From a virus: DNA of 42,727 nt. The stretch is from positions 1 through 42,727 of the IMG/VR virus record IMGVR_UViG_3300035670_000460. The stretch is one strand, 5' to 3'. The translations under genes and the position numbers were made by a program. The notes below the pieces were generated by a model, which worked only from the letters and a program-made list of their open reading frames with translations, ran no database searches and was not told where the DNA came from. Of this stretch, positions 1,630 through 39,703 are shown piece after piece; position 1 is the first letter of the stretch; each line of letters starts with the position of its first letter.

Positions 1630-2423
1630 TGTCAAAAAATGTATTTTTAAATAAAGTAATAGCAACCACAGCGGTACAGACAAATCAAATTGACGAAGAG
1701 CATATTGAAGCTAAAGAATATGTTTGCGCTAATCCATTGGCAATATATGGAGCACCACCAAGAACAGTTTCAGAATGCCTTGAAAAGTTTTTCCCTGGAT
1801 ATACACAAAATGCTGCTCTTAATGATATGGTCGCTAAATTAAGACCATCAAAGCCATCCATATCGTCAGATATGGAAACTGGACTTGCTATTTACGAAGA
1901 AAATCCAGAACCAGATGGTTGCACATTGACATGTGCATTTGTAGAAACAAAGATGTGCGATGATATCAAAGAAAAACTCGGAGATACATTTTTAGGGTGT
2001 TTTTATTCAGAACCAAATGCACCATTTAGTTGTGATTGCCCAGCGTTTGGAAAAGATTTTCCAAAACTATTAAGTATTGCTGTTAAAAATTCTACATTTT
2101 GGAATACCCCTCTTGAATCTCCTTTAGTTAGAAGAGCATTTCTAGCCTTTTTAAACGCGACAAAGGTAAAAGTAACAATAGATGGTAATTTTAGTATTAG
2201 ACCTGGATATTCAGTATTCATCAATGATCCCGGAAATTCATTTTCTGGATCTCAAACAGGCAAATTGCATGGATTTTGGGTTATAACTGCTATAACTCAT
2301 ACTATTTTTAAAGATAGACACCATGAATCTACCTTGACATTAGCCAGACATTATACGCCAGCAAATAATGCTAATACAAATACAGTATTTCAAAATCTAC
2401 CCGGCCTAAATATTCAAAGATGA
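1629..2423 (+). CDS. Putative baseplate hub protein (gp27 / late-control-D-like C-terminus)
   Basis: This is a 264-residue protein. The C-terminal ~80 residues have the layout seen in baseplate hub proteins of the gp27/gpD type: a beta segment (V-T-I-D-G), then 'I-R-P-G-Y-S-V-F', a short loop, then 'G-F-W-V-I-T-A-I-T-H' and a strand with alternating hydrophobics ending 'L-T-L-A-R-H'. The first ~150 residues hold an unusual number of cysteines, including C-T-L-T-C and C-D-C. The start ATG overlaps the upstream stop, and a purine-rich GAGAAGGA lies just before it. The end overlaps the next gene by ATGA. The hub role is inferred from the C-terminal pattern and from its position before gp25-like and gp6. 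A profile search would be needed to tell gp27 from other hub or spike proteins. Confidence 0.5.
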   Translation: MSKNVFLNKVIATTAVQTNQIDEEHIEAKEYVCANPLAIYGAPPRTVSECLEKFFPGYTQNAALNDMVAKLRPSKPSISSDMETGLAIYEENPEPDGCTLTCAFVETKMCDDIKEKLGDTFLGCFYSEPNAPFSCDCPAFGKDFPKLLSIAVKNSTFWNTPLESPLVRRAFLAFLNATKVKVTIDGNFSIRPGYSVFINDPGNSFSGSQTGKLHGFWVITAITHTIFKDRHHESTLTLARHYTPANNANTNTVFQNLPGLNIQR

Positions 2424-2797
2424 GCTATCTTAAAGACATCAATATTTTGGGATATATCGACGCAAAAGGGGATATAGCGAAGGTATCAAAAATACCATTT
2501 ACTAATCAAATAGTAAAAAATTTATTAAATCTTAAGGGTGGAGATATAAGATTATCTGATAATTTTCCATCCCATAGTTTAGATGACTATAAATTTCAAA
2601 GTAATAGCCCTAAATTGTTGATAACAAATACAAAATTAACCTCAAGAGTAAAAAATGCTCTTAAAGAGGTAAAGGATATAAAGGTAAAACCAATTCAGGG
2701 GTTAAATAGTATTACATTTGATGTTTCGTATCAAATATTAGACTCGGTATCAAAAAATCTACAGACTTCAAGCTTTAAGTTCACAATAGATAAATAA
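2420..2797 (+). CDS. gp25-like baseplate wedge protein (divergent)
   Basis: This is a 125-residue protein, about the size of T4 gp25 (132). The region 'I-V-K-N-L-L-N-L-K-G-G-D-I-R' resembles the gp25/GpW-family opening in which a helix leads into a 'K-G-E-R' turn. Later, 'R-V-K-N-A-L-K-E-V-K-D-I-K-V' and 'I-T-F-D-V-S-Y-Q-I' fit the family's helix and final beta strands. The usual E-P-R motif is not evident, so the match is weak in sequence. gp25 immediately before gp6 is the standard T4-like order. In T4 it is a sheath-polymerisation nucleus attached to the wedge. It overlaps the previous gene by ATGA and is followed by a late-promoter-like GATAAATA that includes its stop codon. Confidence 0.5.
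   Translation: MSYLKDINILGYIDAKGDIAKVSKIPFTNQIVKNLLNLKGGDIRLSDNFPSHSLDDYKFQSNSPKLLITNTKLTSRVKNALKEVKDIKVKPIQGLNSITFDVSYQILDSVSKNLQTSSFKFTIDK
2789..2796 (+). promoter_or_regulatory. Late promoter-like GATAAATA upstream of gp6
   Basis: GATAAATA matches the T4 gp55-dependent late consensus TATAAATA at 7 of 8 positions. It ends 5 bases before the gp6 ATG at 2802. No Shine-Dalgarno sequence lies between. If the start site is placed as in T4, the mRNA would begin at or next to the ATG. Confidence 0.55.
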
Positions 2798-2801
2798 TTT
2801 C

Positions 2802-4517
2802 ATGAATTATGATATTAATCTGGTAGATCTTGATAAAGACTCATTAAAACAAAATTTAACCGATTATCTAAAATCTACTGAAGTCGGTAAGCAGTATGAT
2901 TTGGATACTAATGGTACTGCTGTAAAGATGCTAATAGATCTTTTTAGCTATAATACGCTAATTTGGGCGCATTATCTACATCTTGTCAATAAAGAATCTT
3001 TTATTTCCACTGCTCAAAGAACAGATTCTATCTCAAAGTTATTACAATCTTCTGGTTTCACTGTATCAAATAAAAATTCTGCTATTAGTCTTGTAACATT
3101 CACCAAAACAAATGCGAGTCTTGCTCAGATTGATAGATTTGCAGTTGTTCGTGGTAGAAATGCAAATAATAGCATAGAAAATTTTTATTATGTTGATGAT
3201 TTGGTAACTTTAGATGCCTCTACAACTCTTACTTTTTATGCTGGTAATTCTCTCGTCAAAGAAACCAGAATATATGTTGATTTAGATAATCAGGAATATC
3301 AAATTCCAGATGTGGATGTAGATGTTAGGACAATAAGAATATCTGTAAATTCCATATATTGGAATAATCATACAAACAATCCACTACAAGATACAAACGA
3401 AAATTCTCAAATTTTCTTTGTTGTTAGAAAAGGTAAATATTATTACATTAAATTTGGAAAAGATTTACAGAGTCAAAATATTAATAGTATAGGTAAATCT
3501 GTTACTGGGGCAGATATAGTAAAATTGTCGTATGTCATATCATCTGGTTTGGACGGCAATGGTGTAAAAATTACAGAACTTGTATCTAATGGTTCTAAAA
3601 CAATACCAACAGTTTTAGTATCTTCTACTACCTCAAGTGGAGGATATGATACGCCAGATTTAAATTATCTAAAATATGTTGGACCAAGATATTACGGATA
3701 TCAGGGGTTAATTACAAAATCTGATTATGAAGCTGCCATAATATCTTCTGGATATTTGTCAGATTATACAGATCCTCAAAACAAAATAGCTGTTTTTGAC
3801 GGTCAGACACATAATAATAACTATGGAAAAATTTATTTTTCTATAATAAATCTTGATGTTGATTCAGAGCAAATATCCTCAATAAAGACTTTATTACAAA
3901 ATAAAGCTGTATTTGGATTAAATGTGGAATACAAAACAAGTGAAAATTTTACAGGGAATATAACAATTGCCTGTACTAGAGATGGAACAAAAACCACAAA
4001 AACAATAGGACAATTACAAAATGATTATGAAGATGCAATTGAGTCTGCATATTCTGATCTTAGATTTAACAATTCGATATCAAAAGCAGATTTGATCGTT
4101 CTTGCAAATGAAGTAGATGCAGGATTAGTCGTAAAAGATTCAAATATATCATTTACTTTTACAAAGACATTAAATCTTACAGAAAATAAAACAGTTTATT
4201 TTTACAATCCAATTTCAAGTATAACTACCGATCTAGTATCAAGCAATCTATCAACTAGCAATGTAAAATTTATTTCTACATCAACTAGTGTTCCTGAACT
4301 AAATGGATTTAAATATATCGATGCAGTCTTATCAAACGGAACTGTAGTAAAATCAAAAGTAGGAGTATTTAATGCTACAACTGGTTTTATATTATTCTAT
4401 GATTCTTTAGTGGTAAGTGATGAATTTGATATAACAATAACTCCAAATACTGATCAAATTTCTCCTGTACAGAATATGGCCGTTGAATATTCAATTTCTA
4501 GTTTAACAGTAACATGA
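2802..4517 (+). CDS. 6: Baseplate wedge protein gp6
   Basis: This is a 571-residue baseplate-J-type protein. The N-terminus (L-K-Q-N-L-T-D-Y-L-K near residues 15-24, then 'D-T-N-G-T-A-V-K-M-L-I-D-L-F-S-Y-N' near 36-52) is the characteristic gp6 start. It is followed by 'E-S-F-I-S-T-A-Q-R' and the beta-rich wedge body. T4 gp6 is 660 residues, so this version is somewhat short. gp6 dimers form the continuous ring of the T4 baseplate wedge with gp7, gp8, gp10, gp25 and gp53. The ATG at 2802 is chosen because it directly follows a GATAAATA site. There is no Shine-Dalgarno sequence. The end overlaps the next gene by ATGA. Confidence 0.85.
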   Translation: MNYDINLVDLDKDSLKQNLTDYLKSTEVGKQYDLDTNGTAVKMLIDLFSYNTLIWAHYLHLVNKESFISTAQRTDSISKLLQSSGFTVSNKNSAISLVTFTKTNASLAQIDRFAVVRGRNANNSIENFYYVDDLVTLDASTTLTFYAGNSLVKETRIYVDLDNQEYQIPDVDVDVRTIRISVNSIYWNNHTNNPLQDTNENSQIFFVVRKGKYYYIKFGKDLQSQNINSIGKSVTGADIVKLSYVISSGLDGNGVKITELVSNGSKTIPTVLVSSTTSSGGYDTPDLNYLKYVGPRYYGYQGLITKSDYEAAIISSGYLSDYTDPQNKIAVFDGQTHNNNYGKIYFSIINLDVDSEQISSIKTLLQNKAVFGLNVEYKTSENFTGNITIACTRDGTKTTKTIGQLQNDYEDAIESAYSDLRFNNSISKADLIVLANEVDAGLVVKDSNISFTFTKTLNLTENKTVYFYNPISSITTDLVSSNLSTSNVKFISTSTSVPELNGFKYIDAVLSNGTVVKSKVGVFNATTGFILFYDSLVVSDEFDITITPNTDQISPVQNMAVEYSISSLTVT

Positions 4518-5269
4518 TAATTTTATTTAACCCAACAATAGGACAATCTTCAAGTCCAGCTCAATTCAGTATTGATGTTGGGGCTGAATATGCTATTGAT
4601 CAACTTAAAGAAATATACGATTTTAATAAACTTTTTAGAACAGATCTAAATTTTAGATATTATATTGAAAATCAATTTCCTCAATGGATTCAAGATCAAG
4701 CTAAAAAGAATACTGATGTTAAAATTATAGATCTAATTCAAGAATTTTATAATTTTTACTTTTCAACTAATGGTTTGAATTTATATCCAAATTACGAACA
4801 TATTCAGAGTGCATTTTTCTCAAATCAGGATGGTCTTAGATCTATGTACTCATCGATGTTCTCTGATTTTGATTTTGATGATTTTATCGAAACAAAAGAA
4901 CAAGAATTGAGAGAATTCTTAATTTCAAATAAAAGTAGATTTGTGGCAAATAAGGGAACAGAATCTTCTTATGATTATTTCCTAGCTACACTTTTTGCTG
5001 ACATAGAATATCAATTATCCAAAGGTGTAGATGATACTTTTGTTTTAAATGCATCTGAAATGAATGATAAGGTAATTACTGATGGTACTGATTACCAAGA
5101 ATTTTCTATTGTAGTAGAAGCATCTATAGATGAAAAATATCAAGATGATTTTATTTCAATGTTGAAACCAGTTGGTTTTTATATGAATCTAAAGCAATCT
5201 CCAATAACATTTAACTCTCTACTTTCTTCTATTAGTAAGAACAATCCACTTGCAATTACTATATCCTAA
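4514..5269 (+). CDS. Baseplate wedge protein, gp7-like / tail-protein-I-like
   Basis: This is a 251-residue acidic protein. The signature 'F-R-Y-Y-I-E-N-Q-F-P-Q-W-I' near residues 46-58 and 'F-V-A-N-K-G-T-E-S-S-Y-D-Y-F-L-A-T-L-F' near 143-161 are typical of baseplate proteins of the tail-protein-I / gp7 class, where a 'K-G-T' element precedes the wedge-binding helix. T4 gp7 is more than 1000 residues, so this may be a minimal version that keeps only the core-bundle-binding part. It is translationally coupled to gp6 through ATGA. It lies between gp6 and gp8, exactly where T4-like phages place gp7. The exact homology is inferred. Confidence 0.55.
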   Translation: MIILFNPTIGQSSSPAQFSIDVGAEYAIDQLKEIYDFNKLFRTDLNFRYYIENQFPQWIQDQAKKNTDVKIIDLIQEFYNFYFSTNGLNLYPNYEHIQSAFFSNQDGLRSMYSSMFSDFDFDDFIETKEQELREFLISNKSRFVANKGTESSYDYFLATLFADIEYQLSKGVDDTFVLNASEMNDKVITDGTDYQEFSIVVEASIDEKYQDDFISMLKPVGFYMNLKQSPITFNSLLSSISKNNPLAITIS

Positions 5270-5275
5270 TTTTAT

Positions 5276-5283
5276 CATAAATA
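5276..5283 (+). promoter_or_regulatory. Late promoter-like CATAAATA upstream of gp8
   Basis: CATAAATA (7 of 8 to the T4 late consensus) lies in the 20-base gap after the gp7-like gene. It ends 6 bases before the ATG at 5290, with no Shine-Dalgarno sequence between. The predicted start site falls on or beside the initiation codon. Confidence 0.6.
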
Positions 5284-5289
5284 AACAGT

Positions 5290-7128
5290 ATGACAAACGC
5301 AAATAAATCTGAAAAATTATACTCTTCAAGTGCAGAAGAATTCATCAAATCTGCGTTTAAGGAAGATTACTATCTTGGCTTTGGTGTTGGTAAAGCGGGA
5401 TATGAAAAATACACAAATAAGTTATCAAAAGTTGCTGCCAATAATGCAATTTTTGGAAAAAGAGTATTGCCAAATAGCATAACAGCTGTTATCGAAAGAA
5501 AAAACTGGGAATCAAAATCATACATTCCATACAATCCTGGAGTTGATATAACAAATAGCATCTGTTTTAATAGTACAGATGCTGGTTTATATCTTTGCCT
5601 AAAGGACGGAAGCAATAATAAACAAAGTTCTTTTGGGACAGAAAAATCCAGATATCAACCCTCTGGTTCTGCTGGAGTTATTTTAGATTATCCAGACGGA
5701 TATCAATGGATTTTAATATCAAAAGATCAATTAAATGATTATTTGACAAATTATACTCGTATTCGTGGTATTGATACCATGATTCAATTTAAAGGCCCTA
5801 CAGCTGATGCAGGAAGTCCAACTGGATCTACTGGCGGTGGTGGAGCTACTGGGCTTAGTGCTGGCACATGCTGCCTATACGCCAAAAGAGCGATTGATAT
5901 CAATGGCGTTTGCTTAAATAAAGGCGATATAGTACAAGCATTTACAGTTCCAAATAAAATTACATGTGAAATTTTTGGAACTCTTTTAGATTTACATCCA
6001 GTATTCAAGGATTCTTTGCTTGGTGTATGCGGAGGATTCTTCAATTACTCAGGAACAGCTGGATGTACTCCCTGCAACGATACTACATCAAGCGTGACAG
6101 TATTTGAAGTTTATGGTGATATAGTTTCTCAATATTCTACAACAAATCCATTTAGAATAAATTACGAAACACAATCTACAAACTTTAAATCTGGTGGGAT
6201 CTTAAATGTTGTCTGGTGGGATGATCCCACAAAGGCATTCTATGTAAGTAAAGAAGATCCAGAACTTGTTTTGGATTACGATGGTACAGTAGGAAATTTC
6301 AAGGCATATTTAAAAACTGAATATGTTGGTTCTAACTTAGGATATAAAGTAATTGGTGTTAAATGGAACAATGCTTTAGATGTTCAAAATTGTGTTTATA
6401 TAGAACCAATTGCTTTAGAAGCTGGAGTAATCGGAACAAGCCCAAATGGAGATTTTTCTGAATGTTTAACTCAAATAGAATTTGGATTTACTCCAGAATC
6501 TGATGGAAATTATCTCAATGTTTATGGTTTATTAAGACCCTCTAAAATTGCAATTGAACAATCTCTAACAAAAACAGAATTGCAGCAACTTACTCCAACA
6601 ACCATAAATCCAACATTTCAGTTAGATTCTGTTTTCATCTCTAAAGGAATAAAGTATCCAGATGGAAGAAAATTATCCCCTCTCGTCAACAGAGCATATA
6701 CTCCATCACTAAATAAAACTGCCGCAAATGCTACAATTCTTGATACTGCTACTATTACAGAATCTAGTTTTATTCATGATCCCGTATCAGCATCTTCTAA
6801 TTATTTTTCAAATAAATTAAATAGAACAAAGACATCAAAATATTCAGCAGATTCTGTTGAACCAGCAAATCCTTTGTCATCGTATAAAATAACAAATTTC
6901 GGTGGAACTGATTTGCTTATAGCATCATATAATGCTGCCACATCTCTTACTGGTGGAATAACATTAGATTATGCTAATACTGACAAGAGCAGTGGATCTA
7001 TTACTATAAGTTCAGTGATAAAAGCACCATATACTTTTGATGGTTGCGAAATAATTTTTGCATCAGATACTGATGTCAACGACTCATCGTCTACATATAA
7101 AGTAACAGCAATTTTTGATATATCATGA
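5290..7128 (+). CDS. 8: Baseplate wedge protein gp8, enlarged
   Basis: This is a 612-residue protein. Residues 59-75 ('V-L-P-N-S-I-T-A-V-I-E-R-K-N-W') match the conserved T4 gp8 segment around 'V-L-P-S-M-L-D-A-V-I-P-R-R-D-W'. The following region ends in 'D-G-Y-Q-W' near 136-140, as in gp8 ('D-G-Y-V-W'). T4 gp8 has 334 residues. The extra length includes a glycine-rich linker at about 170-190 and a cysteine-rich module at about 194-262 (C194, C195, C208, C226, C247, C259, C262), followed by a long beta-rich C-terminus. gp8 is a wedge component that contacts gp7 and gp10. It starts 6 bases after a late-promoter-like site and ends in an ATGA overlap with the next gene. Confidence 0.75.
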   Translation: MTNANKSEKLYSSSAEEFIKSAFKEDYYLGFGVGKAGYEKYTNKLSKVAANNAIFGKRVLPNSITAVIERKNWESKSYIPYNPGVDITNSICFNSTDAGLYLCLKDGSNNKQSSFGTEKSRYQPSGSAGVILDYPDGYQWILISKDQLNDYLTNYTRIRGIDTMIQFKGPTADAGSPTGSTGGGGATGLSAGTCCLYAKRAIDINGVCLNKGDIVQAFTVPNKITCEIFGTLLDLHPVFKDSLLGVCGGFFNYSGTAGCTPCNDTTSSVTVFEVYGDIVSQYSTTNPFRINYETQSTNFKSGGILNVVWWDDPTKAFYVSKEDPELVLDYDGTVGNFKAYLKTEYVGSNLGYKVIGVKWNNALDVQNCVYIEPIALEAGVIGTSPNGDFSECLTQIEFGFTPESDGNYLNVYGLLRPSKIAIEQSLTKTELQQLTPTTINPTFQLDSVFISKGIKYPDGRKLSPLVNRAYTPSLNKTAANATILDTATITESSFIHDPVSASSNYFSNKLNRTKTSKYSADSVEPANPLSSYKITNFGGTDLLIASYNAATSLTGGITLDYANTDKSSGSITISSVIKAPYTFDGCEIIFASDTDVNDSSSTYKVTAIFDIS

Positions 7129-9254: not shown

Positions 9255-10193
9255 ATGGCACTAAATCCTTATTTTAAATTTCAAGGAACCGAACAAAATG
9301 TTGTCGAGGATAACATTGTTGAAATAATTCGGATGATGGGAAAAAATGTTTGGTATATTCCTAGAGAAAGTGTAAATTTAGATAGACTTTTTGGTGAGGA
9401 TCAATTAAACAGATTCACAAAAGCTTATCAAGTGGAAATGTATGTTGCTTCTGTTGCTGGATTTGAGGGATCTGATCTTGTAACTAAATTTGGTCTTGAA
9501 ATCAAAGATAGAGTGAATCTGATTGTTAGTAAGAAAAGATTTTCAAAAGAAATTACAACAAAAAATTCTACTATAATTAGACCAAGAGAAGGAGATTTAA
9601 TTTTCTTTCCTTTGACTAAAACTTTATTTGAAATTAATTTTGTAGAGCACGAATTACCTTTCTATCAATTAGATAAAAACTATGTGTATACTTTGAGCTG
9701 TGAGACATTTGTTTATTCGGCTGAACATTTCGATACTGGAAATACCGATATGGATACTTTATCTGATACAAAGCAAAGTGTATTTAATTTCTCAATCGGT
9801 GCTACCTTCTCTGGGTTTACAGCAGCATATAATAAAGCTGTTCGTGGAGAAAAATATTTTGTTACTGGATCTATTGCAGGAACAACAGCATACTTTAGAC
9901 TACTTGACTTTGATTTAGAGGGTAGTGGAATGACTGCTTTGATGGCATCTATCGATGGAGTCACATTTAATAATCCAATTACCGTTACTAGTGATGTTTC
10001 TGGATCTACATTCAGAGTTCTATCTGTTTCTACAACTAATAAATCAGTTACTATTAATCCAGTTCTTGATGATCTTGAAGGAGAAATTAGTCCTCTAGAT
10101 TACCAACGAGGGTTTACTGGTAGCGGAAGCAAGATAGATACTCCTATCATCAACTTCAGTGAGGTTGATCCATTCTCAGAGGGCAACTATTAA
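9255..10193 (+). CDS. 14: Neck protein gp14
   Basis: This is a 312-residue protein. The start 'A-L-N-P-Y-F' and the segment 'M-G-K-N-V-W-Y-I-P-R-E' with 'D-R-L-F-G-E-D' are the standard gp14 N-terminal landmarks, followed by 'F-S-K-E' and 'R-P-R-E-G-D-L-I-F-F-P'. T4 gp14 has 256 residues. The extra length lies mainly in a Thr/Ser/Gly-rich beta region at about 180-300. gp14 builds the neck with gp13 and takes part in head-tail joining. The stop overlaps the gp15 start (TAATG), so the two are translationally coupled. Confidence 0.9.
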   Translation: MALNPYFKFQGTEQNVVEDNIVEIIRMMGKNVWYIPRESVNLDRLFGEDQLNRFTKAYQVEMYVASVAGFEGSDLVTKFGLEIKDRVNLIVSKKRFSKEITTKNSTIIRPREGDLIFFPLTKTLFEINFVEHELPFYQLDKNYVYTLSCETFVYSAEHFDTGNTDMDTLSDTKQSVFNFSIGATFSGFTAAYNKAVRGEKYFVTGSIAGTTAYFRLLDFDLEGSGMTALMASIDGVTFNNPITVTSDVSGSTFRVLSVSTTNKSVTINPVLDDLEGEISPLDYQRGFTGSGSKIDTPIINFSEVDPFSEGNY

Positions 10194-11257
10194 TGTTTGG
10201 TTCATATAATAATCAATCAATACGAAAATTAGTTGTTGCTTTTGGTTCTTTATTTGATGAACTTTATGTTACTAGAAAAAATGATACAACTGGTGTAGTT
10301 GAAAATGTTAAAGTTCCTATTACTTTTTCCTCAAAAGAAAAATTTCTAAGAAGATTAGAGTCAAATTCGTCCATTACTGATAATGTAAAAACTCAAATTA
10401 ATTTACCATATATGAGTTTTGAAGTTTCGAATATTCTCTACGATACTGCGAGAAAGAGAAATAAATTAACAACAACAACTCAAATAGTTACTGAGGCAAT
10501 TGGTGGAATAGAAAATTCTTATAAAACATTTTCAGAAACTCCAATTATAGTTGCATTTAATGTTTATTTCTATTCAAGAAGTTTAAATGAAATATTTCAA
10601 ATTGTTGAACAGATTATGCCTTATTTTAATCCTGAATTCAACATAAGAATGAATTTTAATAAAATATTTGAGAATGTAAATATTCCAATATCTTATAGAG
10701 AATTTAAACTTATTGATGATTATGAAGGATCATTAAATACTAGAAGAATGGCAATTGGAGTTATTAGTTTTACTGCTGCCTCATATGTTTTTGGTGAAAT
10801 TAAACCAACAATTATAATTGAAGATGTAATTGATGATACTGATTTAAATCCTGACGATGATTCTGATGACGACGGAACTACAGATCCTGTAATACCAACT
10901 ACAGAAATAAGAATAAATACAAATTTTGGAATAACCACTTATTTCTTACCAATTTCTCAAACTAATTTTAGAACTGATTTATCTTGGACTGAAACATCAG
11001 TTACTTCTTTAACGACAAATGTATCGATAATGACAGAGACAAATCGTTTACTTTATACAGTAAATGTTCCTGCAAATACATTGCAGTTATCGGTAGCACA
11101 AGTAACAGAGGCCATAAATAGTATATGTACCGAGCTTAACATTTGTGGTTTAGATGATGGTGTTCTTAGAAAATTAAAAGTAGTAATAACTAATGGTACT
11201 ACTGTTGCTTCTAAGGGTTTTAGAGCTGTGATGGATTGTACAACTATATGTCCGTAG
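10193..11257 (+). CDS. 15: Tail completion / sheath terminator protein gp15, with C-terminal extension
   Basis: This is a 354-residue protein. Residues 1-205 match gp15: 'M-F-G' start, 'V-P-I-T-F-S-S-K-E-K-F' at 41-51 (T4 'V-P-I-T-Y-A-S-K-E-H-F') and 'L-P-Y-M-S-F-E' at 71-77. T4 gp15 has 272 residues and caps the tail as a hexamer that connects to the neck. Here an acidic Asp-rich linker at about 210-228 leads into an extra Thr/Val-rich domain at about 232-354 that ends in C-T-T-I-C-P. The extension is not expected from T4 and may be an added surface domain. It overlaps the gp16 start by 10 bases. Confidence 0.85.
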   Translation: MFGSYNNQSIRKLVVAFGSLFDELYVTRKNDTTGVVENVKVPITFSSKEKFLRRLESNSSITDNVKTQINLPYMSFEVSNILYDTARKRNKLTTTTQIVTEAIGGIENSYKTFSETPIIVAFNVYFYSRSLNEIFQIVEQIMPYFNPEFNIRMNFNKIFENVNIPISYREFKLIDDYEGSLNTRRMAIGVISFTAASYVFGEIKPTIIIEDVIDDTDLNPDDDSDDDGTTDPVIPTTEIRINTNFGITTYFLPISQTNFRTDLSWTETSVTSLTTNVSIMTETNRLLYTVNVPANTLQLSVAQVTEAINSICTELNICGLDDGVLRKLKVVITNGTTVASKGFRAVMDCTTICP

Positions 11258-11673
11258 AAAAGTTAAATGAATTTTTTAATATTGAGCCTTCTGGTAGAAC
11301 TTTAGAAACAAAAGATCTAACAAAACCAGATGCTGATTATGATTTTGCAAAACAAAATTTATACGATATCATAGAAAAATCAAAAATTGCTCTTAATGGT
11401 ATTATGAAGGTTGCAACTGAGGGTGATTCCCCAAGAGCATATGAAGTAGTAACTCAAATGTTGAAAACCATGTCAGAGATCAACAAAGATCTTATAGATC
11501 TTGAGAAGATAAAGAATGAAGCAAATAAGACCACTATAAAAACAACAAACAATAATTCATTCTTCATAGGCTCCACTAGTGATCTACAGGACTTAATCAA
11601 TCCTGAAAGAAGCAAGAATAAAGCTATAGAAATGATTGATGCGAAGGTGGTAGAGGATGTCAAGGAAATTTAA
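11248..11673 (+). CDS. 16: Small terminase subunit gp16
   Basis: This is a 141-residue protein from the ATG at 11248. A TTG 12 bases upstream is possible but unlikely. The region 'D-Y-D-F-A-K-Q-N-L-Y-D-I-I-E-K' and the long central helices ('Y-E-V-V-T-Q-M-L-K-T-M-S-E-I-N-K-D-L') match the coiled-coil core of T4-like gp16. The tail 'F-I-G-S-T-S-D-L-Q-D-L-I' matches the conserved C-terminal segment. It forms the ring that recognises concatemer DNA and regulates the gp17 motor. T4 gp16 has 164 residues. The gene overlaps gp15 at its start and gp17 at its end, typical of this operon. Confidence 0.85.
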   Translation: MSVEKLNEFFNIEPSGRTLETKDLTKPDADYDFAKQNLYDIIEKSKIALNGIMKVATEGDSPRAYEVVTQMLKTMSEINKDLIDLEKIKNEANKTTIKTTNNNSFFIGSTSDLQDLINPERSKNKAIEMIDAKVVEDVKEI

Positions 11674-13306
11674 GGGTTACTTAGGTAATCCAAATTTAAA
11701 AGAAGCTGGAGTAAAGATTGACTTTACCGAAGAACAAATTCGGGAATATGTTCGTTGTTCCCAAGATCCTATTTACTTTATCAAGAAATATGTAAAGGTA
11801 GTGTCTCTTGATAAGGGTCTTGTTCCTTTTGAATTATATGATTACCAAGAGGACATGATTAATAAAATGCATAACAATCGTTATATCATTGCCAAACTGC
11901 CTCGTCAGTCTGGTAAGAGCACAACGATTGTTGCATTTATTCTTCACTACATTCTCTTCAACCAGAGCATGAGCGTTGGTATTCTGGCGAACAAGATGAA
12001 TACGGCTAGAGAAATTCTTGGCCGTCTTCGTCTGGCTTATGAGTATCTTCCCAAGTGGCTTCAGCAAGGTATCATCGAATGGAACAAGACATCCATTCAG
12101 CTAGAGAATGGTTCAAAGGTCATGGCATCAGCCACATCCTCATCAGCAGTTCGTGGTGGATCGTTCAATCTCATTTTCTTGGACGAATTTGCCCATGTCT
12201 CTCAAAATATTGCAGAAGAGTTCTTTAGCTCAGTTTACCCCACGATTACCTCTGGTCAGACCACAAAGGTATTCATGGTATCCACCCCAAACGGACTCAA
12301 TATGTTCTATTCCTTCTGGAAGGGGGCTACAAGGAAGCAGGGCGAGGAGGGGAAGAACGAGTATATACCCATAGAGGTATCCTGGAGACAGGTCCCTAAG
12401 TACGCTGGTGGGCCTCTACGCGACGAGCAGTGGAAGCAGCAGATGATTGCCCAGACCAGCGAACAACAGTTTGAGCAGGAGTTTGAATGTTCGTTCCTTG
12501 GTTCGTCAAATACCCTAATCAGTGCTAGTAAGTTAAATTTGCTTCAATTTGATAAACCTCTGGCAAAGGAGCCAGGAGGTCTTTACATCTACGACGAGCC
12601 AGTTGAGGGTCATGCGTACTTCATCATGGTCGATGTCGCCAGAGGTCAGGGTAGAGACTATACGGCTATGGTGGTGGTCGATTCTACTGAAAAGCCTCAT
12701 AAGGTCGTGGCTAGATATAGAAATAATCTTATATCCCCCTTTGATGTTCCTCCAGAACTTTACAATCTGGCAATAAAATATAATAATGCACACCTACTGA
12801 TTGAAGTCAATGATATCGGAGGTCAGATTGCCGATGCCATGCACGAAGATTACGAGTATGAAAATATCATTCAGACTCAGATGATGGGCCGTGCAGGACA
12901 AAAAGTAACCTTGGGATTCGGTCGCGGAACAAAACAAAGAGGCGTAAGAACCAGCTCTGCGGTCAAAAAACTGGGTTGTGCGGTTCTAAAAAATTTAATT
13001 GAGCAAGATAGGCTCTTGGTCAGAGATTTTGATATCATTCAAGAATTGATGACTTTTGTTTCAAAACATCAGACACATTGTGCAGATGATGGTTATACAG
13101 ACGATTTGGTTATGTGTCTTGTTCTTTTTGGGTGGCTAACTCGTCAGGGCTACTTTGAAGAGATTATAGACATGCAGAAGAAAAAAATTATAAATACCAC
13201 AGAGAAAGAGGAGGAAGAGAATACCACTTTTTTTATGGGTACACTTGAGATTGATGTAGAAAAAACATTCAAAGAAGGTAATTCTCTTTGGTTTACTGAG
13301 GAATAA
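11657..13306 (+). CDS. 17: Large terminase subunit gp17 (packaging ATPase-nuclease)
   Basis: This is a 549-residue protein. The ATPase domain shows the Walker A variant 'L-P-R-Q-S-G-K-S-T' at 81-89 and Walker B 'L-I-F-L-D-E-F-A-H-V' at 172-181, followed by the coupling motif 'V-S-T-P-N-G'. The RNase-H-like nuclease domain starts near 310 with 'I-M-V-D-V-A-R-G-Q-G-R-D-Y' and ends with the conserved Asp of 'D-D-L-V-M-C-L'. T4 gp17 has 610 residues. It translocates DNA into the prohead through the gp20 portal and cuts the concatemer. The start at 11657 has a GAAGGTGGTAGAGG purine tract just upstream and overlaps gp16. Codon use in the middle of the gene (about 12290-12690) is GC-richer than in its neighbours. 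Confidence 0.95.
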   Translation: MSRKFKGYLGNPNLKEAGVKIDFTEEQIREYVRCSQDPIYFIKKYVKVVSLDKGLVPFELYDYQEDMINKMHNNRYIIAKLPRQSGKSTTIVAFILHYILFNQSMSVGILANKMNTAREILGRLRLAYEYLPKWLQQGIIEWNKTSIQLENGSKVMASATSSSAVRGGSFNLIFLDEFAHVSQNIAEEFFSSVYPTITSGQTTKVFMVSTPNGLNMFYSFWKGATRKQGEEGKNEYIPIEVSWRQVPKYAGGPLRDEQWKQQMIAQTSEQQFEQEFECSFLGSSNTLISASKLNLLQFDKPLAKEPGGLYIYDEPVEGHAYFIMVDVARGQGRDYTAMVVVDSTEKPHKVVARYRNNLISPFDVPPELYNLAIKYNNAHLLIEVNDIGGQIADAMHEDYEYENIIQTQMMGRAGQKVTLGFGRGTKQRGVRTSSAVKKLGCAVLKNLIEQDRLLVRDFDIIQELMTFVSKHQTHCADDGYTDDLVMCLVLFGWLTRQGYFEEIIDMQKKKIINTTEKEEEENTTFFMGTLEIDVEKTFKEGNSLWFTEE

Positions 13307-13311
13307 CAAAT

Positions 13312-14481
13312 ATGCCATCAATCAACATTTTCGAAAACTCAACCCCAATCATTCAAGGAAGCGATGCAGAGGCATCGACCCATTTATCAGCATTTATCTG
13401 CGGATATTCTTTATATCACAAAATAACTCAGAATGATACTATTCAGCTAGGTTATAAAATTTTTAATACAAAAGATGAATTAATTTCAGTTTTTAATATT
13501 GATGTTCTGAGTGGTGTATCTTCTGGTTTTCCAACAGGAGCTGGTTTCAGCGGCGGAACTATCCATGATAGAGAATTGCACTCAGCAATAAATTATCTTC
13601 TTTATGGAGGTATTTTAGTTGCAGCAACTGGGGCAAGCGCACTAAATAATACAAATCTTGCAATCGATAGCGTATTCTGCGAGGATAATGCCAAATTCCA
13701 AGATGTAATTACTTTAGTAAATTTACGCCAAGACTGCGTTGGTATTTTAGGATCATCAGCAGAATATCACAATGGATCTTCTGCAACATATCCAACAGCA
13801 ACATTTGCCACTTATTCGGTTTATGGCATAACAGGAATTACAGGCAATACGGGAACTGATGAAAATTTCTTTAGTGTTCTTGGCAGAAAAACAGTAGATA
13901 GATTCTATGGCACAACCGGATCTATTAACCTTCTATTAACCTCTGATATTGCAGGTTTAATGGCATCTGTAGATGCTGGTTTTGGCCCCTGGAATCCACC
14001 TTCAGGAATTCGTAAAGGCGAAATTCAAAGATTTACAAACTACGAACCAAAATTAAGCGAAACTAATATTGATACATTAAAAGATTCTTATGGTATCAAT
14101 AGTCTTAGTGGGATTTATGGATATCCTGATAGAGTCTTTGTTATGGGCGATTCTACTCTTGAACAGGTAGATCCTGATAGAATGCATATTGGTATCTCTA
14201 GACTTATTCTTCATATTAAGAGAGGAATAAAGCCACTTCTACAAGGCGTTCTATTTGAAGTGAACAACAATAGCACAAGAACTGCTCTAACAAATGTTGT
14301 AACCAGCTTCCTTGAAAGAATAAAAAATAAGGGTGGTATTTCAACCTACACTGTTACTTGCAATGAAACTAATAATACGGAAACTATTATTACTTCTAAA
14401 CAATTGGTAATTGATATTACATTCGTTCCATATTATACAATCGAAACAGTAACATTTAGATTTGTCCTATCACAAGCTTAA
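13312..14481 (+). CDS. 18: Tail sheath protein gp18, paralogue 1 (compact)
   Basis: This is a 389-residue protein. The conserved sheath C-terminus is clear: 'W-N-P-P-S-G-I-R-K-G' near 227-236, 'V-M-G-D-S-T-L' near 275-285, then the helix 'I-S-R-L-I-L-H-I-K-R-G-I', 'F-E-V-N-N-N-S-T-R', and a final 'Y-T-V-T-C-N-E-T-N-N-T' with the C-terminal strand. T4 gp18 has 659 residues, so the protruding outer domains are mostly absent. The sheath contracts to drive the tube into the cell. The next gene is a second sheath paralogue, and the two overlap by one base (TAATG). Two sheath genes in tandem are unusual. Confidence 0.85.
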   Translation: MPSINIFENSTPIIQGSDAEASTHLSAFICGYSLYHKITQNDTIQLGYKIFNTKDELISVFNIDVLSGVSSGFPTGAGFSGGTIHDRELHSAINYLLYGGILVAATGASALNNTNLAIDSVFCEDNAKFQDVITLVNLRQDCVGILGSSAEYHNGSSATYPTATFATYSVYGITGITGNTGTDENFFSVLGRKTVDRFYGTTGSINLLLTSDIAGLMASVDAGFGPWNPPSGIRKGEIQRFTNYEPKLSETNIDTLKDSYGINSLSGIYGYPDRVFVMGDSTLEQVDPDRMHIGISRLILHIKRGIKPLLQGVLFEVNNNSTRTALTNVVTSFLERIKNKGGISTYTVTCNETNNTETIITSKQLVIDITFVPYYTIETVTFRFVLSQA

Positions 14482-15776
14482 TGGCTTTAAATTATTCCAT
14501 AAAGGAAATAGAAAATAAAAAAATCGTAGATGGGGGATTCCTCATCTACGATTCTCTATTTTTTAGTGTGCTTGGAATAACAGAAAAACATAAAACTTTA
14601 GAATCAGTTTACGATTTTACTAAACTTATAAATTCTAGCGACTTTACGCAAATAGATTCCAGTATTACTGATTCTGATTTGTTTTTAAAAGAGTTAAATA
14701 GTTCATCTTCAACTTCATATAGAAGCAATCTTAGAAAAATAGATTTCTACTTTAATTTTATTTTAGATGCTCTGCATTATAACTATAAAATATATCTAAT
14801 TAATGCTTCTACAGAAAATAATGTATTTGAGATATTAAATAGATACGATCTTGATTTTTTAGTATATGACCCATTAAAAACTACAGTATCAACAGAATTT
14901 AAGACAGAAGTAAAATTAAAGAATATACCAGTTTTATTTAATTCATCAATATCATCTTCAACATTTAACCCAATTGAAAATTTTTATATTCTTAATAATG
15001 TTACTGATTTGAATTATCAATTTGATAATTTTTATGTAAGATCAGAATTGAATGATACTGATTTCAATCAATTATCGTTTACTGTTGCTGGTGTTAAAAG
15101 GATAAAAAGATATTATGGAGATGAGAATATAACAGACGATAGCGAATATTCAAATTCTCCTTATGTTTTAATTTCTTTGTTGAGTGATATTTCAGGTATG
15201 TTATCTAGATCATATTCAGAATATCCTTGGTATTCCATTGCTGGTTTTAGAAATGGAAGAGTTTTAAATCAAAGATTTACTAAAATAGCATTATCTTCTA
15301 TAAGATATTCTGAAGATATAATTCCTCAAACTCCAACAAATATAACTCTTTCTTCGGGTTCAAAATTAAATACAGCCCATTCTAGAGGAATTAATACGGT
15401 ATTAAATTTGCCAAGTCCTTCTGGAAAAGAATATTATCTTGCTAGTGATTTATCTGGTATAACTTCTTCTGAAAATGAAGTTAAAAAAACATTTTCATAT
15501 GGTAATTTATTTTCCTATATTTCAAGAAATAGCAAAAAGGTGATAAACGAATACTTATTTGAACCCAATAATACAGAAAATAGAGGACAAATAACAAATA
15601 AATTGAATAGAATGATGGAAAATGTAAAAGTTAATAATGGTATAGAATTCTATACTGTTACATGCAATGATACTAATAACACAACAACAACGATTGCTCA
15701 GAGTAAACTTATCGTTGATATATCCTATAAACCTATACAAAGCCCAAGCGTAATAAATCTAAATTTTACTACATAA
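14481..15776 (+). CDS. Tail sheath protein, paralogue 2
   Basis: This is a 431-residue protein. The C-terminal half parallels the upstream sheath: 'W-Y-S-I-A-G-F-R-N-G' near 247-256, 'Y-L-F-E-P-N-N-T-E' near 355-363, and 'F-Y-T-V-T-C-N-D-T-N-N-T' near 392-403 followed by the closing beta strand. The N-terminal half is more divergent and very Asn/Ser/Asp-rich. It may be a second sheath subunit used at a particular position or in different amounts from paralogue 1. A strong inverted repeat followed by a T-tract lies only 41 bases inside the gene (14522-14564), which could lower its expression. It shares the TAATG junction with paralogue 1, so translation is probably coupled. Confidence 0.8.
   Translation: MALNYSIKEIENKKIVDGGFLIYDSLFFSVLGITEKHKTLESVYDFTKLINSSDFTQIDSSITDSDLFLKELNSSSSTSYRSNLRKIDFYFNFILDALHYNYKIYLINASTENNVFEILNRYDLDFLVYDPLKTTVSTEFKTEVKLKNIPVLFNSSISSSTFNPIENFYILNNVTDLNYQFDNFYVRSELNDTDFNQLSFTVAGVKRIKRYYGDENITDDSEYSNSPYVLISLLSDISGMLSRSYSEYPWYSIAGFRNGRVLNQRFTKIALSSIRYSEDIIPQTPTNITLSSGSKLNTAHSRGINTVLNLPSPSGKEYYLASDLSGITSSENEVKKTFSYGNLFSYISRNSKKVINEYLFEPNNTENRGQITNKLNRMMENVKVNNGIEFYTVTCNDTNNTTTTIAQSKLIVDISYKPIQSPSVINLNFTT
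14522..14564 (+). terminator. Terminator-like hairpin inside the second sheath gene
   Basis: AATCGTAGATG (14522-14532) is perfectly complementary to CATCTACGATT (14543-14553). The stem can be extended inward by a G-U pair and two G-C pairs, leaving the loop GATT. A T-run (14559-14564) follows after five bases. This is the form of an intrinsic terminator, but it lies inside coding sequence just after the start of sheath paralogue 2. It could act as an attenuator or mRNA stability element. Confidence 0.5.
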
Positions 15777-15799
15777 TAAAAGAATTAGAGGGTAATTAT

Positions 15800-16354
15800 A
15801 TGGCAAATAGTATCCAAGATTTCATTAATGGATTTAGAGGCGGTACTAGAAAAAATCGTTTTAAAGTAACTGGAGCGTTTCCATCTGGATCTGGAGGAGA
15901 TGCAACAAAGTTACAATTTCATGTACTTTCCGCCTCTTTACCGAATTCTACACTAGGTATTGTAAATTTTCCATATAGAGGAAGATTAATTCCATATGTC
16001 GGAGATAGAACATATGAGCCTTGGGATATTTTAGTTTTAGACGATAGCGGTGCTGGTCTTTATAATGCATTTCAAGGATGGACGGAACTAATAAACAATC
16101 AAGCAACAAATGAACATGCCTATGTTGCAGATGATAGCTGGTTTGGTGGAGATGCAGACGGAGCGGCAATTCAAGACGATTCCTGGTATATTGAACAGCT
16201 AGATTTAAATGGTGATACAACTAAAAAAATTATTTTAAGATCTTGTTGGCCCAGCACTGTTAGCGCATTACAATTTAATATGGCAGAAACTGGATTTAAT
16301 TCATTTGCTGTAAGAATGAATTACAATTATATTCAAGTAGATGGCATCAATTAA
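15800..16354 (+). CDS. 19: Tail tube protein gp19, paralogue 1
   Basis: This is a 184-residue protein that starts with the tube-family signature 'I-Q-D-F-I-N-G-F-R-G-G-T-R-K-N-R-F', followed by 'F-H-V-L-S-A-S-L-P' and 'Y-R-G-R-L-I-P-Y-V-G-D-R-T-Y-E-P-W'. The C-terminus 'N-S-F-A-V-R-M-N-Y-N-Y-I' is the usual last beta strand. T4 gp19 has 163 residues and forms hexameric rings stacked inside the sheath. The ATG at 15800 has a Shine-Dalgarno AGAGGG at 15787-15792. This copy differs more from the two following paralogues than they differ from each other, particularly in the central loop. Confidence 0.85.
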   Translation: MANSIQDFINGFRGGTRKNRFKVTGAFPSGSGGDATKLQFHVLSASLPNSTLGIVNFPYRGRLIPYVGDRTYEPWDILVLDDSGAGLYNAFQGWTELINNQATNEHAYVADDSWFGGDADGAAIQDDSWYIEQLDLNGDTTKKIILRSCWPSTVSALQFNMAETGFNSFAVRMNYNYIQVDGIN

Positions 16355-16356
16355 TC

Positions 16357-16986
16357 ATGTCTATCCAGTCCTTTATTACTAATTTTAGAGGAGGAACACG
16401 AAAAAATAGATTTCGTGTAATATGCAATATTCCGGGTTTTACAATACCTACTATTATAGGACAACCTTCTGATTTTAAACCATCAGCTATCGCATCAGCT
16501 GGACCTGGAGATATTTCTGGCCAAGGAGGATTTGACGATTTTCATGTTCTTGCTGCCGCATTACCAACATCTATAATAACTACAAATCCTATAGATTATC
16601 AGGGTAGAAGAATCTTATATCCTGGAGATAGAATTTATAGTGGTGATGGATTTAATGTTTGGACTGCTACAATTCAAGACGATATTTCTACTAGTGGAAG
16701 TTTAAGTCCTGCTGCCAGAAGAAATAATTTATGGTCTAGATTGCATGCATGGTGCAATGGAATAAATTCACACAGATATAATACTGGTAATACTACAACT
16801 GCCGTAGAATCAGATATTATAGTTGAACAATTAAATTTAAATGATACTGGTGTTCCTCTTAAGAAAGCCACTTTAAAAAATGCTTGGCCGCAATCAATAA
16901 CTCCAATTGATATGGAAATGCAAGCAAGAGATCAATATAATACATTTGATGTGACTTTTTGTTTCAAATATGTAATATATGAATAA
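16357..16986 (+). CDS. Tail tube protein gp19, paralogue 2
   Basis: This is a 209-residue protein. It has the same N-terminal signature ('F-R-G-G-T-R-K-N-R-F-R-V') and the core 'A-A-A-L-P-T-S-I-I-T-T-N-P-I-D-Y', then 'R-I-L-Y-P-G-D-R-I-Y-S-G-D-G-F'. Relative to paralogue 3 it carries about 25 extra residues after the first strand (Pro/Gly-rich, near residues 27-58). It shares a 112-base perfectly identical block with paralogue 3. It follows paralogue 1 by two bases and has no evident Shine-Dalgarno sequence, so it may be translated by re-initiation. It is probably a tube ring variant or a tube component at one end. Confidence 0.85.
   Translation: MSIQSFITNFRGGTRKNRFRVICNIPGFTIPTIIGQPSDFKPSAIASAGPGDISGQGGFDDFHVLAAALPTSIITTNPIDYQGRRILYPGDRIYSGDGFNVWTATIQDDISTSGSLSPAARRNNLWSRLHAWCNGINSHRYNTGNTTTAVESDIIVEQLNLNDTGVPLKKATLKNAWPQSITPIDMEMQARDQYNTFDVTFCFKYVIYE
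16553..16664 (+). repeat. 112-bp perfect direct repeat, copy 1 (tube paralogue 2)
   Basis: Bases 16553-16664 are identical at every position to 17130-17241 (offset 577). The block encodes the conserved central tube segment. Synonymous sites are identical too, although the flanking DNA has diverged. That indicates recent duplication or gene conversion. Confidence 0.95.
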
Positions 16987-17008
16987 TTAAAACACTAAAG
17001 GTAATAAA

Positions 17009-17587
17009 ATGTCAATTCAAAATTTTATAGACAATTTCGAAGGCGGAACAAGAAAGAATAGATTCAGAGTTAGAATGACTTCTGGACCTTCTTATGTAAC
17101 AAACAACATAGATGATTTTCATATAGAATCTGCCGCATTACCAACATCTATAATAACTACAAATCCTATAGATTATCAGGGTAGAAGAATCTTATATCCT
17201 GGAGATAGAATTTATAGTGGTGATGGATTTAATGTTTGGACAATGCGTGTTCTAGACGATTTAGACGATCCAGCATCAAGTGAAACGCATAAAAATTTAT
17301 GGAAAGGTTTGCATGCTTGGAGTGATAGCATAAATGATCATGTAACAAATACAGGTAATGCTTTAGAATTTGGAACAATAGTTGTTGAACAATTAAATTT
17401 AAATGCTAAAGATTCAAGTCCTCTTAATCCTGATGGTGAGGAGGGAGGGGTATTAAAAATTGCAACTTTAGTTGAATGCTGGCCTCAATCAATTAGCACA
17501 ATTGATTTTGAGATGCAAGCTAGAGATCAATATAATTATTTTGATGTTACCTTCTGTTTCAAATATGTTCAATATTCTGGTGGATAA
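17009..17587 (+). CDS. Tail tube protein gp19, paralogue 3
   Basis: This is a 192-residue protein opening with 'I-Q-N-F-I-D-N-F-E-G-G-T-R-K-N-R-F-R-V'. The core is identical in protein and DNA to paralogue 2 over the 112-base block. The C-terminal half is related ('E-M-Q-A-R-D-Q-Y-N-Y-F-D-V-T-F-C-F-K-Y-V' against a near-identical segment in paralogue 2) but carries an acidic insertion ('P-D-G-E-E-G-G') near residue 150. A Shine-Dalgarno AAAGG (16997-17001) precedes the ATG, so it may be translated more strongly than paralogue 2. The stop codon lies within a GATAAATA late-promoter-like site. Confidence 0.85.
   Translation: MSIQNFIDNFEGGTRKNRFRVRMTSGPSYVTNNIDDFHIESAALPTSIITTNPIDYQGRRILYPGDRIYSGDGFNVWTMRVLDDLDDPASSETHKNLWKGLHAWSDSINDHVTNTGNALEFGTIVVEQLNLNAKDSSPLNPDGEEGGVLKIATLVECWPQSISTIDFEMQARDQYNYFDVTFCFKYVQYSGG
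17130..17241 (+). repeat. 112-bp perfect direct repeat, copy 2 (tube paralogue 3)
   Basis: Second copy of the block at 16553-16664. The mismatches that bound it are at 17129 and 17242. The two copies lie in the same reading frame of adjacent paralogues, so recombination between them would delete 577 bases and fuse paralogues 2 and 3 less one base out of frame-multiple (577 is not divisible by 3). Confidence 0.95.
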
Positions 17588-17610: not shown

Positions 17611-19146
17611 ATGGCTTATAAATTATTTGGTTTTACTATACGCGGAAAAGGGGAGGAAGAACAACTTTCTCTTCAGAATTTTACTACTCCAGAAGAATTT
17701 GATGGCTCTTACACCGTAGAAGGAGCTGGAGTATATGGTACTTTTATAGACTTTATGGGTTCGTTGAAAGACGAACAAGCATTAATTGCTCAATATAGAG
17801 CAATGGCATTATTTCCAGAAGTAGATACTGCAATTGATGAGATAACAAATGAATGCATCGTAATGGGTGCAGATAGAAAAGCTGTAAAGCTGGATTTATC
17901 TAAAATTCAATTTTCAGATAATATTAAAAGTAAAATTTATAGCGAATTTGATAACATCTTAAAGTTATTAGATTTTCAAGATAAAGGCTATGAAATTTTT
18001 AGACGATGGTATGTAGATTCTAAACTTTATTATTATATCTCTATAAATTCTGAAAATCCATCAGAAGGAATAAAACAATTAATACCTTTAGATTCTACAA
18101 AAGTAAAGAAAGTAAAGAAAGTAAAAACTAAAAATACTCGCCAAGATGGGAGTAGTCTGTCTTTAATCAAAGATATAGAAGAATTCTATGTCTATACTAA
18201 TACCGATAGGAATTCAGTAGTAGGAACTCCTACATCTGGTCTTAAGATATCCCCAGATTCAATAGTGTTCTGCCACTCAGGAATGGTTGATATGAACTCT
18301 AAGAGAGTTGTTGGCTATCTTCATAAGGCAATCAGACCATTAAATATGTTACGACAAGTAGAAGATGCTATTGTCGTATATCGCATTTCTCGCGCTCCTG
18401 AGCGTCGTATTTTTTACATCGATGTTGGTAATTTGCCAAAACAAAAAGCCGAACAATATGTTCGTGAGCTTATGAATAAGTATCGTAATCGTATGATCTA
18501 TAACCAGACAACTGGCGAAATCAAAGACGATAGAAATCAAATGGCAATGCTTGAAGATTACTGGCTACCTCGCCGCGAAGGTGGTAGGGGAACTGAAATT
18601 TCTACCCTAGATGGGGGACAGAATCTTGGTGAATTGACCGATGTTGAATATTTCAAGAAAAAGCTCTACTACGCTTTGAATATTCCTCCCTCAAGACTTG
18701 TAGGAGAAAATGGATTCAATCTTGGAAGATCGGCTGAAATCACGCGAGATGAGGTCAAGTTCTACAAATTTATTGAAAGATTAAGAAATAAATTTGCACA
18801 GGCATTTATGCAGCTCTTAAGAGTTCAGTTAATTCTTAAGGGAATAATTACTGAAACTGATTGGGAAGATATTAGCCATAACATTAATTTTGTTTTTAAT
18901 AAAGATTCATATTTCACAGATCTAAAAGATGCTGAGATTTTATCCGCAAGAATGGAATTGGCCACTCAAATGGAACCAATGATTGGCAAGTACTACTCGA
19001 CTCTTTATATAAAGAAAAATATTCTAAAGCAAACAGACGAAGAAATAGATCAATTAAATAGGGAAATGGCCATTGATATAGCCAAACAGCAACAAGAACA
19101 AATGATGCAGATGCAAATGGCACAAGAAGCAGAGCAGCCAGAATAA
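17611..19146 (+). CDS. 20: Portal vertex protein gp20
   Basis: This is a 511-residue protein, close to T4 gp20 (524). Landmarks include 'Y-R-A-M-A-L-F-P-E-V-D-T-A-I-D-E-I-T-N-E' near 61-80, 'R-P-L-N-M-L-R-Q-V-E-D-A-I-V-V-Y-R' near 240-256 and 'P-E-R-R-I-F-Y-I-D-V-G-N-L-P' near 261-274. 'Y-W-L-P-R-R-E-G-G-R-G-T-E-I' follows. The C-terminus is Gln/Met-rich. The portal dodecamer is the entry channel for DNA and the docking site for terminase and neck. An unusual nine-base near-repeat at 18100-18126 encodes K-V-K-K-V-K-K-V-K. The start is supported by AAGG at 17597-17600. Confidence 0.95.
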   Translation: MAYKLFGFTIRGKGEEEQLSLQNFTTPEEFDGSYTVEGAGVYGTFIDFMGSLKDEQALIAQYRAMALFPEVDTAIDEITNECIVMGADRKAVKLDLSKIQFSDNIKSKIYSEFDNILKLLDFQDKGYEIFRRWYVDSKLYYYISINSENPSEGIKQLIPLDSTKVKKVKKVKTKNTRQDGSSLSLIKDIEEFYVYTNTDRNSVVGTPTSGLKISPDSIVFCHSGMVDMNSKRVVGYLHKAIRPLNMLRQVEDAIVVYRISRAPERRIFYIDVGNLPKQKAEQYVRELMNKYRNRMIYNQTTGEIKDDRNQMAMLEDYWLPRREGGRGTEISTLDGGQNLGELTDVEYFKKKLYYALNIPPSRLVGENGFNLGRSAEITRDEVKFYKFIERLRNKFAQAFMQLLRVQLILKGIITETDWEDISHNINFVFNKDSYFTDLKDAEILSARMELATQMEPMIGKYYSTLYIKKNILKQTDEEIDQLNREMAIDIAKQQQEQMMQMQMAQEAEQPE

Positions 19147-23059: not shown

Positions 23060-23569
23060 ATGTCATTAACAGAAATTTCAACTGTTGGTCAAAATTATTT
23101 TCGCTTTGAATTGGCAAGAATTCCAACAGTAACTTATTATACCCAAGAAGTAAATCTTCCAAATATAATTCAAGAAACACAAGATCAACCAACTATTTTT
23201 GGAATTCCAATCAAAAGACCAATCGGGTCATATAGATTTGAAAATTTAACTGTATCTTTTTTGGTTGATGAAAAATTAACAAACTGGTTTGAAATTTATA
23301 AATGGATGCGTCATTTGGGTAATATAGACACAGACGATCAAAATAATCAACTTCCATTTGATTCTTGGATGACAACAGCATACTTATATGTGACAAAAGG
23401 AACATATAACGATTTTAATAAAGTTATATTCCATGAAGTCTTTCCAGTAGCTTTATCTGGTCTTAAATTTACCACAGAGAGTAGTATTCATATTCCTCAA
23501 AAGGCAACTGCTACATTTGCTTATACTTATTACTCTTTTGATCCAGATCCAGGTAATATAACAAGTTGA
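23060..23569 (+). CDS. Tail-tube-fold virion protein (gp3 position; gp19/gp54-like pattern)
   Basis: This is a 169-residue protein. The pattern 'F-R-F-E-L-A-R-I-P-T-V' then 'Q-E-V-N-L-P', 'F-E-N-L-T-V-S-F-L-V-D-E' and 'W-F-E-I-Y-K-W-M' is shared with tube-fold proteins such as gp19 and gp54 ('L-V-I-S-F-R-M-D-S-E' then 'M-Q-D-W'). The C-terminal strand 'A-T-A-T-F-A-Y-T-Y-Y' fits as well. Its position between gp23 and uvsY is where many T4-like phages carry gp3, the tail-tube terminator, and its size fits gp3 (176). It may be gp3 or a tube initiator. There is no clear Shine-Dalgarno sequence. A poor TACATA lies four bases before the ATG. Confidence 0.6.
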   Translation: MSLTEISTVGQNYFRFELARIPTVTYYTQEVNLPNIIQETQDQPTIFGIPIKRPIGSYRFENLTVSFLVDEKLTNWFEIYKWMRHLGNIDTDDQNNQLPFDSWMTTAYLYVTKGTYNDFNKVIFHEVFPVALSGLKFTTESSIHIPQKATATFAYTYYSFDPDPGNITS

Positions 23570-32635: not shown

Positions 32636-32943
32636 TGTATATTTGTAATGAAGATTATATGCCCCTCGACATAAAAGAGGTCGTTTACAAGTTTTTAAAT
32701 AAGAGAAATGTTACCAAGCCAGTAGAGGTCTACTGGGGTAGAGGTATAGATGAAGCCGTATTTCTCTATAGCAAAGATAAGACTAAGACAACTTTAGCCT
32801 TCATAGATGATCCTGTGATGACTGAATTTGCATTACAGAATCTTGCTGAAGTAGAATCTCGTTTTGATTATATCTTGACAAATTCTCAAGAACTTTTAGA
32901 ATACTCTAACAAATTTATTAATTATGAAAATAGATCTTCGTGA
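32635..32943 (+). CDS. Hypothetical protein, possible glycosyltransferase fragment
   Basis: This is a 102-residue protein of unknown function. The central part is beta-alpha ('F-L-Y-S-K-D-K-T-K-T-T-L-A-F-I-D-D'). The end 'F-D-Y-I-L-T-N-S-Q-E-L-L' resembles the 'F-D-x-I-x-T-x-x-x-E-L-L' strand-helix seen in N-terminal Rossmann halves of GT-B glycosyltransferases. It may be the truncated start of such an enzyme or a stand-alone small protein. The start overlaps the regA stop (TAATG), and the end overlaps the following GT25-like gene by 20 bases. Confidence 0.4.
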   Translation: MYICNEDYMPLDIKEVVYKFLNKRNVTKPVEVYWGRGIDEAVFLYSKDKTKTTLAFIDDPVMTEFALQNLAEVESRFDYILTNSQELLEYSNKFINYENRSS

Positions 32944-38251: not shown

Positions 38252-38252
38252 T

Positions 38253-39670: not shown

Positions 39671-39694
39671 TTTTATCGTTCCAAAAAGTAGAAT
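39667..39694 (+). promoter_or_regulatory. Sigma-70-like promoter for the final gene cluster
   Basis: TTGATT (39667-39672), a 16-base spacer and TAGAAT (39689-39694). The -10 box ends 9 bases before the ATG at 39704, giving a leader of about 2-3 bases and no Shine-Dalgarno sequence. An overlapping AATAGATA (39692-39699) is a poor late-type match. Confidence 0.5.
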
Positions 39695-39703
39695 AGATAC
39701 AAT

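Follow-up and report, generated by a model that had tools for sequence, protein, structure and literature searches.

A T4-like virus of bacteria, from an uncultured group, carries two tail sheath genes (SH1 and SH2) and three tail tube genes (A, B1 and B2) in the interval between the large terminase (gp17) and the portal (gp20). The array lies in a 42.7-kb IMG/VR virus record, the whole of which was analysed and is referred to here as the window. In T4 the equivalent place is occupied by one gp18 (659 aa) and one gp19, just as the original prediction had stated. The array is a lineage trait, with extra copies retained across a lineage. Since tubes A and B differ most at the hairpin that stacks successive rings, and SH2 has weaker translation signals than SH1, it is plausible that the rings are specialised. 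By analogy with AFP and PVC particles, we propose a model, which we regard as evenly poised, in which the T4-like contractile tail would contain paralogous rings at specific positions.

A five-gene tail array between terminase and portal

The window resembles T4 in gene order and protein families across the gp17-gp18-gp19-gp20 tail module, with T4-type terminase, portal, neck, sheath terminator and capsid genes in T4 order, and its gene order is that of P-RSM4 and HTVC008M. It differs from T4 in having two sheaths and three tubes rather than one of each between gp17 and gp20, and in sheath length (about 390-430 aa against 659). The array genes, the two flanking genes, gp15 and the gene at 23060..23569 are all on the plus strand. 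The array is bounded on the left by gp17 (11657..13306; PF03237, E 1.4e-29) and on the right by gp20 (17611..19146; phrog_213, E 1.7e-196). SH1 (13312..14481, 389 aa) and SH2 (14481..15776, 431 aa), whose start overlaps the SH1 stop (TAATG), match phrog_23 with E-values of 6.6e-31 and 5e-16, respectively, and both score above the cut-off for the C-terminal sheath domain PF17482. Tube A (15800..16354, 184 aa; E 5.8e-35), tube B1 (16357..16986, 209 aa; E 1.7e-21) and tube B2 (17009..17587, 192 aa; E 1.6e-23) all match the gp19-like family phrog_45, while the Pfam gp19 family (PF06841) is sub-threshold for two of them and has no match for the third. Structure prediction, proposed earlier as a check, returned a sheath fold for SH2 (AlphaFold2, pLDDT 92; Foldseek matches to T4 gp18 and to PVC and AFP sheaths) and a tube fold for B2 (AlphaFold2, pLDDT 78.6; Foldseek match to the T4 tail tube 5w5f, E 2.8e-9). 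Open frames, family searches, structure models and relatives agree, and the two sheath and three tube paralogues are therefore real.

Relatives were drawn from IMG/VR loci fetched via SH1 and the portal, and the counts given here describe these fetched loci rather than a census. Their terminase-portal arrays hold sheaths and tubes in the combinations 1/1, 1/2, 2/2, 2/3 and, once, 3/2, so that the homology and synteny search suggested at the outset did recover recurring multi-sheath/multi-tube arrays. An assembly accident is rejected, as independent IMG/VR contigs obtained from many metagenomes carry the array too. A one-tube (2/1) reading of L005 was also rejected because an internal deletion disrupts tube A there. 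Among cultured phages, SH1 matched 2037 places in 2036 records, and tubes A and B1 gave one significant match per record in T4-like phages, searches in which a divergent second copy could be missed. A compact sheath of 423-452 aa is also present in most single-sheath relatives carrying two tubes, and compactness is thus not tied to the two-gene state. Single-sheath relatives likewise carry both A and B, indicating no tight link between expansion of the sheath and that of the tube. The genome contig search for a host gave a single match, to a Flavobacteriales MAG contig (L102; portal 47% identical, 1/1 tail array), a possible lead that is too weak for host assignment.

Tube divergence and the shared B1/B2 hairpin

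Tubes A and B form two clades in the tree, with window A in the first and B1 in the second, and each clade is retained across 1/2, 2/2, 2/3 and 3/2 loci. The two are about 40% identical and remain open across many genomes. When the hairpin blocks of A and B were compared with those of twelve canonical gp19s, identity in the window was 46% for A and 36% for both B1 and B2, and in L054 it was 46% for A versus 26% for B. The A hairpin is nearer to canonical gp19s than the B hairpin in most genomes, and the remainder of both proteins is about equally distant. As judged from these sequences, the A/B split is an old one between paralogues that have diverged chiefly in the beta2-beta3 hairpin by which rings stack, A having the canonical form. 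The beta2-beta3 loop is a main inter-ring contact in tail tubes (PMC8718954). The B2 model places strands at residues 48-56 and 59-68, within block residues 45-77, and this block would correspond to the inter-ring loop, an assignment made from that single model of moderate confidence. No conversion between A and B was seen, the longest shared runs being 2-5 codons where measured.

B1 and B2 are tandem duplicates, with B1 carrying an insertion ahead of the hairpin, and they share an exact 112-bp repeat (16553..16664 in B1, where it spans the beta2-beta3 stacking-hairpin codons, and 17130..17241 in B2, both on the plus strand). In the window, a 33-codon block is 100% identical in nucleotides between the two genes and the rest of the alignment 62%; in near relatives having both genes, the corresponding values are 89-100% for the block and 59-77% elsewhere. 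The window's longest stretch of identical codons spans 36, where column shuffles reach 11 at their 99.9th percentile. Runs of 13-37 codons overlapping the hairpin block occur in additional loci, with long ones over the hairpin in L106, L107, L109, L111 and L112. Orthologues in different genomes lack this pattern: L001 has a portal 99% identical to that of the window, yet its orthologous blocks are only 89-90% identical in nucleotides, and the codon differs at 10-11 of 32 shared residues. In a tree built without the block, the B1 copies of the window, L001, L007, L009, L041 and L016 cluster, whereas the block itself is shared within genomes, and the trees with and without it disagree in the direction expected of conversion. 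Since near relatives also have paralogues matching in this region while orthologues differ at silent sites, this pattern suggests that regional gene conversion is the likely, and simplest, cause of the B1/B2 block. RNA-level or general constraint is disfavoured by the silent-codon differences between orthologous blocks, and an assembly artefact by the recurrence of the pattern in independent contigs. The original prediction had also envisaged switching between tube variants; for B1 and B2 this finds no support, as their stacking hairpin is kept identical.

Sheath paralogues, end proteins and ring composition

SH1 and SH2 are about 30% identical, with frames open across many genomes, and the node uniting them has moderate support (80/80). 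Against the PDB, a profile built from SH2 and its relatives finds Pvc2/3/4 and Afp2/3/4 as well. Between the two sheaths no gene conversion was seen, the longest identical-codon run being 2-4. Codon adaptation was measured against each genome's own gp23, with one gp23 gene per genome as reference, and in the window it is 0.43 for SH1 and 0.30 for SH2. SH1 exceeds SH2 in 16/16 loci, which represent 15 distinct contigs, some near-identical, and hence fewer independent cases. Across loci, SH1 is usually preceded by a Shine-Dalgarno (SD)-like GAGG or AGGA (GAGG in the window), whereas SH2 usually has no such motif and has none in the window. These expression proxies suggest that SH1 is probably the major sheath and SH2 a lower-copy one. 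Among the tubes, an SD-like motif is present on B2 and mostly lacking on B1 (there is none in the window), and codon adaptation is similar for A and B in most genomes, with no consistent difference between them. A relative, L043, encodes a 1460-aa sheath-family protein (1906-6288) with about 1,080 extra N-terminal residues, and two shorter sheath genes come after it.

Proteins for the known T4 end-ring roles exist separately from the array, in the window or in a close relative. The window encodes the tail-sheath terminator gp15 (10193..11257; PF16724, E 1.7e-48) and, at 23060..23569, a 169-aa protein that had been put forward as a fourth tube-fold protein. The tube fold stands, since T4 gp3 likewise has it, but its reading as an extra tube isoform is rejected: the gene has gp23 on one side and uvsY/uvsW on the other, the arrangement of P-RSM4 and HTVC008M, and groups in the gp3 clade, making it a gp3-like tail-tube terminator. 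Records related to the window hold a further tube-fold gene, which in the close relative L103 is a 181-aa gp54-like gene adjoining gp48-like, gp53-like, gp4-like and gp26-type hub genes. Because this gp54-like gene exists separately, alongside a gp48-like gene, the extra tubes probably do not stand in for the T4 initiator, and replacement of gp54 by tube A or B is disfavoured. In L103, a 441-aa acidic-repeat protein (STIDLLPQEDVQEVEQ-like; 1775-3100) adjoins a baseplate-hub gene and a gp32-like gene. Elsewhere in the window, a collagen-like repeat protein with tail-fibre family matches is encoded at 41470-42654, and a run of glycosyltransferase-, methyltransferase- and epimerase-like genes, judged by eye from their translations, follows gp62 at 32924-40921.

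In the proposed model, the contractile tail would be assembled from paralogous ring proteins, with SH1 forming the bulk of the sheath and SH2 most likely contributing one or more rings in a fixed place, probably an end of the tail. Tube A would retain the canonical gp19 stacking hairpin, and tube B, with its altered hairpin, would form rings of another type that have neighbours of their own. With their hairpin codons homogenised by the proposed gene conversion, which would act repeatedly while other loops diverge, the tandem copies B1 and B2 would share one stacking surface. A precedent for special rings comes from PVC structure entries, in which Pvc2 accounts for 30 chains and Pvc3 and Pvc4 for 6 apiece. 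The full form of the model, with two tube-ring kinds of different stacking surface, two sheath-ring kinds at fixed positions, and hairpin-confined conversion that keeps the duplicated tubes co-polymerising while the rest diverges, is more tentative and, in our view, somewhat doubtful. Three observations count against specialised rings: the similar codon adaptation of A and B suggests that neither is clearly minor, gp54-like, gp48-like, gp3 and gp15 proteins already fill the known T4 end-ring roles, and single-sheath relatives also have A together with B. The idea of a tail of several isoforms therefore survives in part, in that the paralogues are real and retained and specialised rings are plausible, whereas B1/B2 switching is unsupported.

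The same near-equal codon adaptation of A and B, their joint retention wherever the pair occurs and the separate existence of end-ring proteins would also fit a heteromeric tail body. In this reading A rings would alternate with B rings, or hexamers would contain both proteins, over the full length, and the same would hold for SH1 and SH2, as it might in a two-component sheath, which phage PaBG has (PMC7412058). We consider this rather unlikely, given that SH2 looks less expressed than SH1, that one-sheath loci carry both A and B, and that the hairpin divergence speaks against free A/B mixing.

Copy-number variation and known multi-ring systems

Copy number varies among the relatives, with tube B1 absent from L006, L018 and L113, a separate duplication of a longer sheath in L049, and a second tube in L011-L013 that falls outside the main A/B clades. 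The variable copy number, the missing B1 genes and the L049 duplication would all be expected of a transient, low-function duplication, in which copies come and go through dosage or drift. That account is quite improbable, because A/B and SH1/SH2 are old pairs yet open in many genomes, and the A/B hairpin difference is patterned. In the window's group, divergence is faster in sheath, tube and gp15 than in portal, terminase and capsid, a difference that is also present, but weaker, in the 1/1 group. It is highly improbable that the additional genes encode interchangeable variants of one part whose surfaces have diversified against a tube-sensing host defence such as DSR2, which is activated by a tail tube and requires its beta2-beta3 loop (PMC10981675). 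The fast evolution of sheath and tube and the different B1/B2 loops outside the hairpin would fit this, but the loop sensed by DSR2 is exactly the part kept identical in B1 and B2, and gp15 evolves fast too.

Position-specialised rings would place this phage beside systems with several ring paralogues, and multi-sheath phages and two-sheath/two-tube injection systems are already known. AFP and PVC particles have several sheath and several tube paralogues, a likeness that holds here at the gene level; they are particles without a capsid or DNA packaging genes, whereas portal, terminase and capsid genes flank the present array, and its sheaths and tubes are nearest to T4-like ones. Bacteroidales injection systems (BIS) of architecture 1 have two sheath and two tube genes per cluster (PMC7394362), and differ in being contractile injection systems rather than phages and in having two tubes rather than three. 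Some phage genomes carry two sheath genes (PMC9230969). In Pseudomonas phage PaBG (PMC7412058), the two-component sheath is encoded by two duplicated sheath genes; the likeness is thus two sheath genes in a phage, established in our case at the gene level. PaBG is a jumbo phage and not T4-like, its two genes, gp213 and gp76, are widely separated by gene number, and the text consulted mentions no tube expansion, whereas both sheath and tube are expanded in the window. Whether such arrays had been described before was left undecided in the original prediction. Two-sheath phages (PaBG) and the AFP, PVC and BIS systems had been, and a search of the open-access literature turned up neither a 2-sheath/3-tube array in any T4-like phage nor a precedent for such a module with hairpin conversion.

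In T4 and the cultured relatives examined, a single tube protein and a single sheath protein make up the tail, and special proteins are confined to its ends. A lineage in which both have multiplied provides a natural experiment on what encodes ring identity and stacking, and the conversion pattern suggests that the hairpin is the region that has to match for rings to co-assemble. The array thereby lets one ask whether phage tails use position-specific rings as injection systems do.
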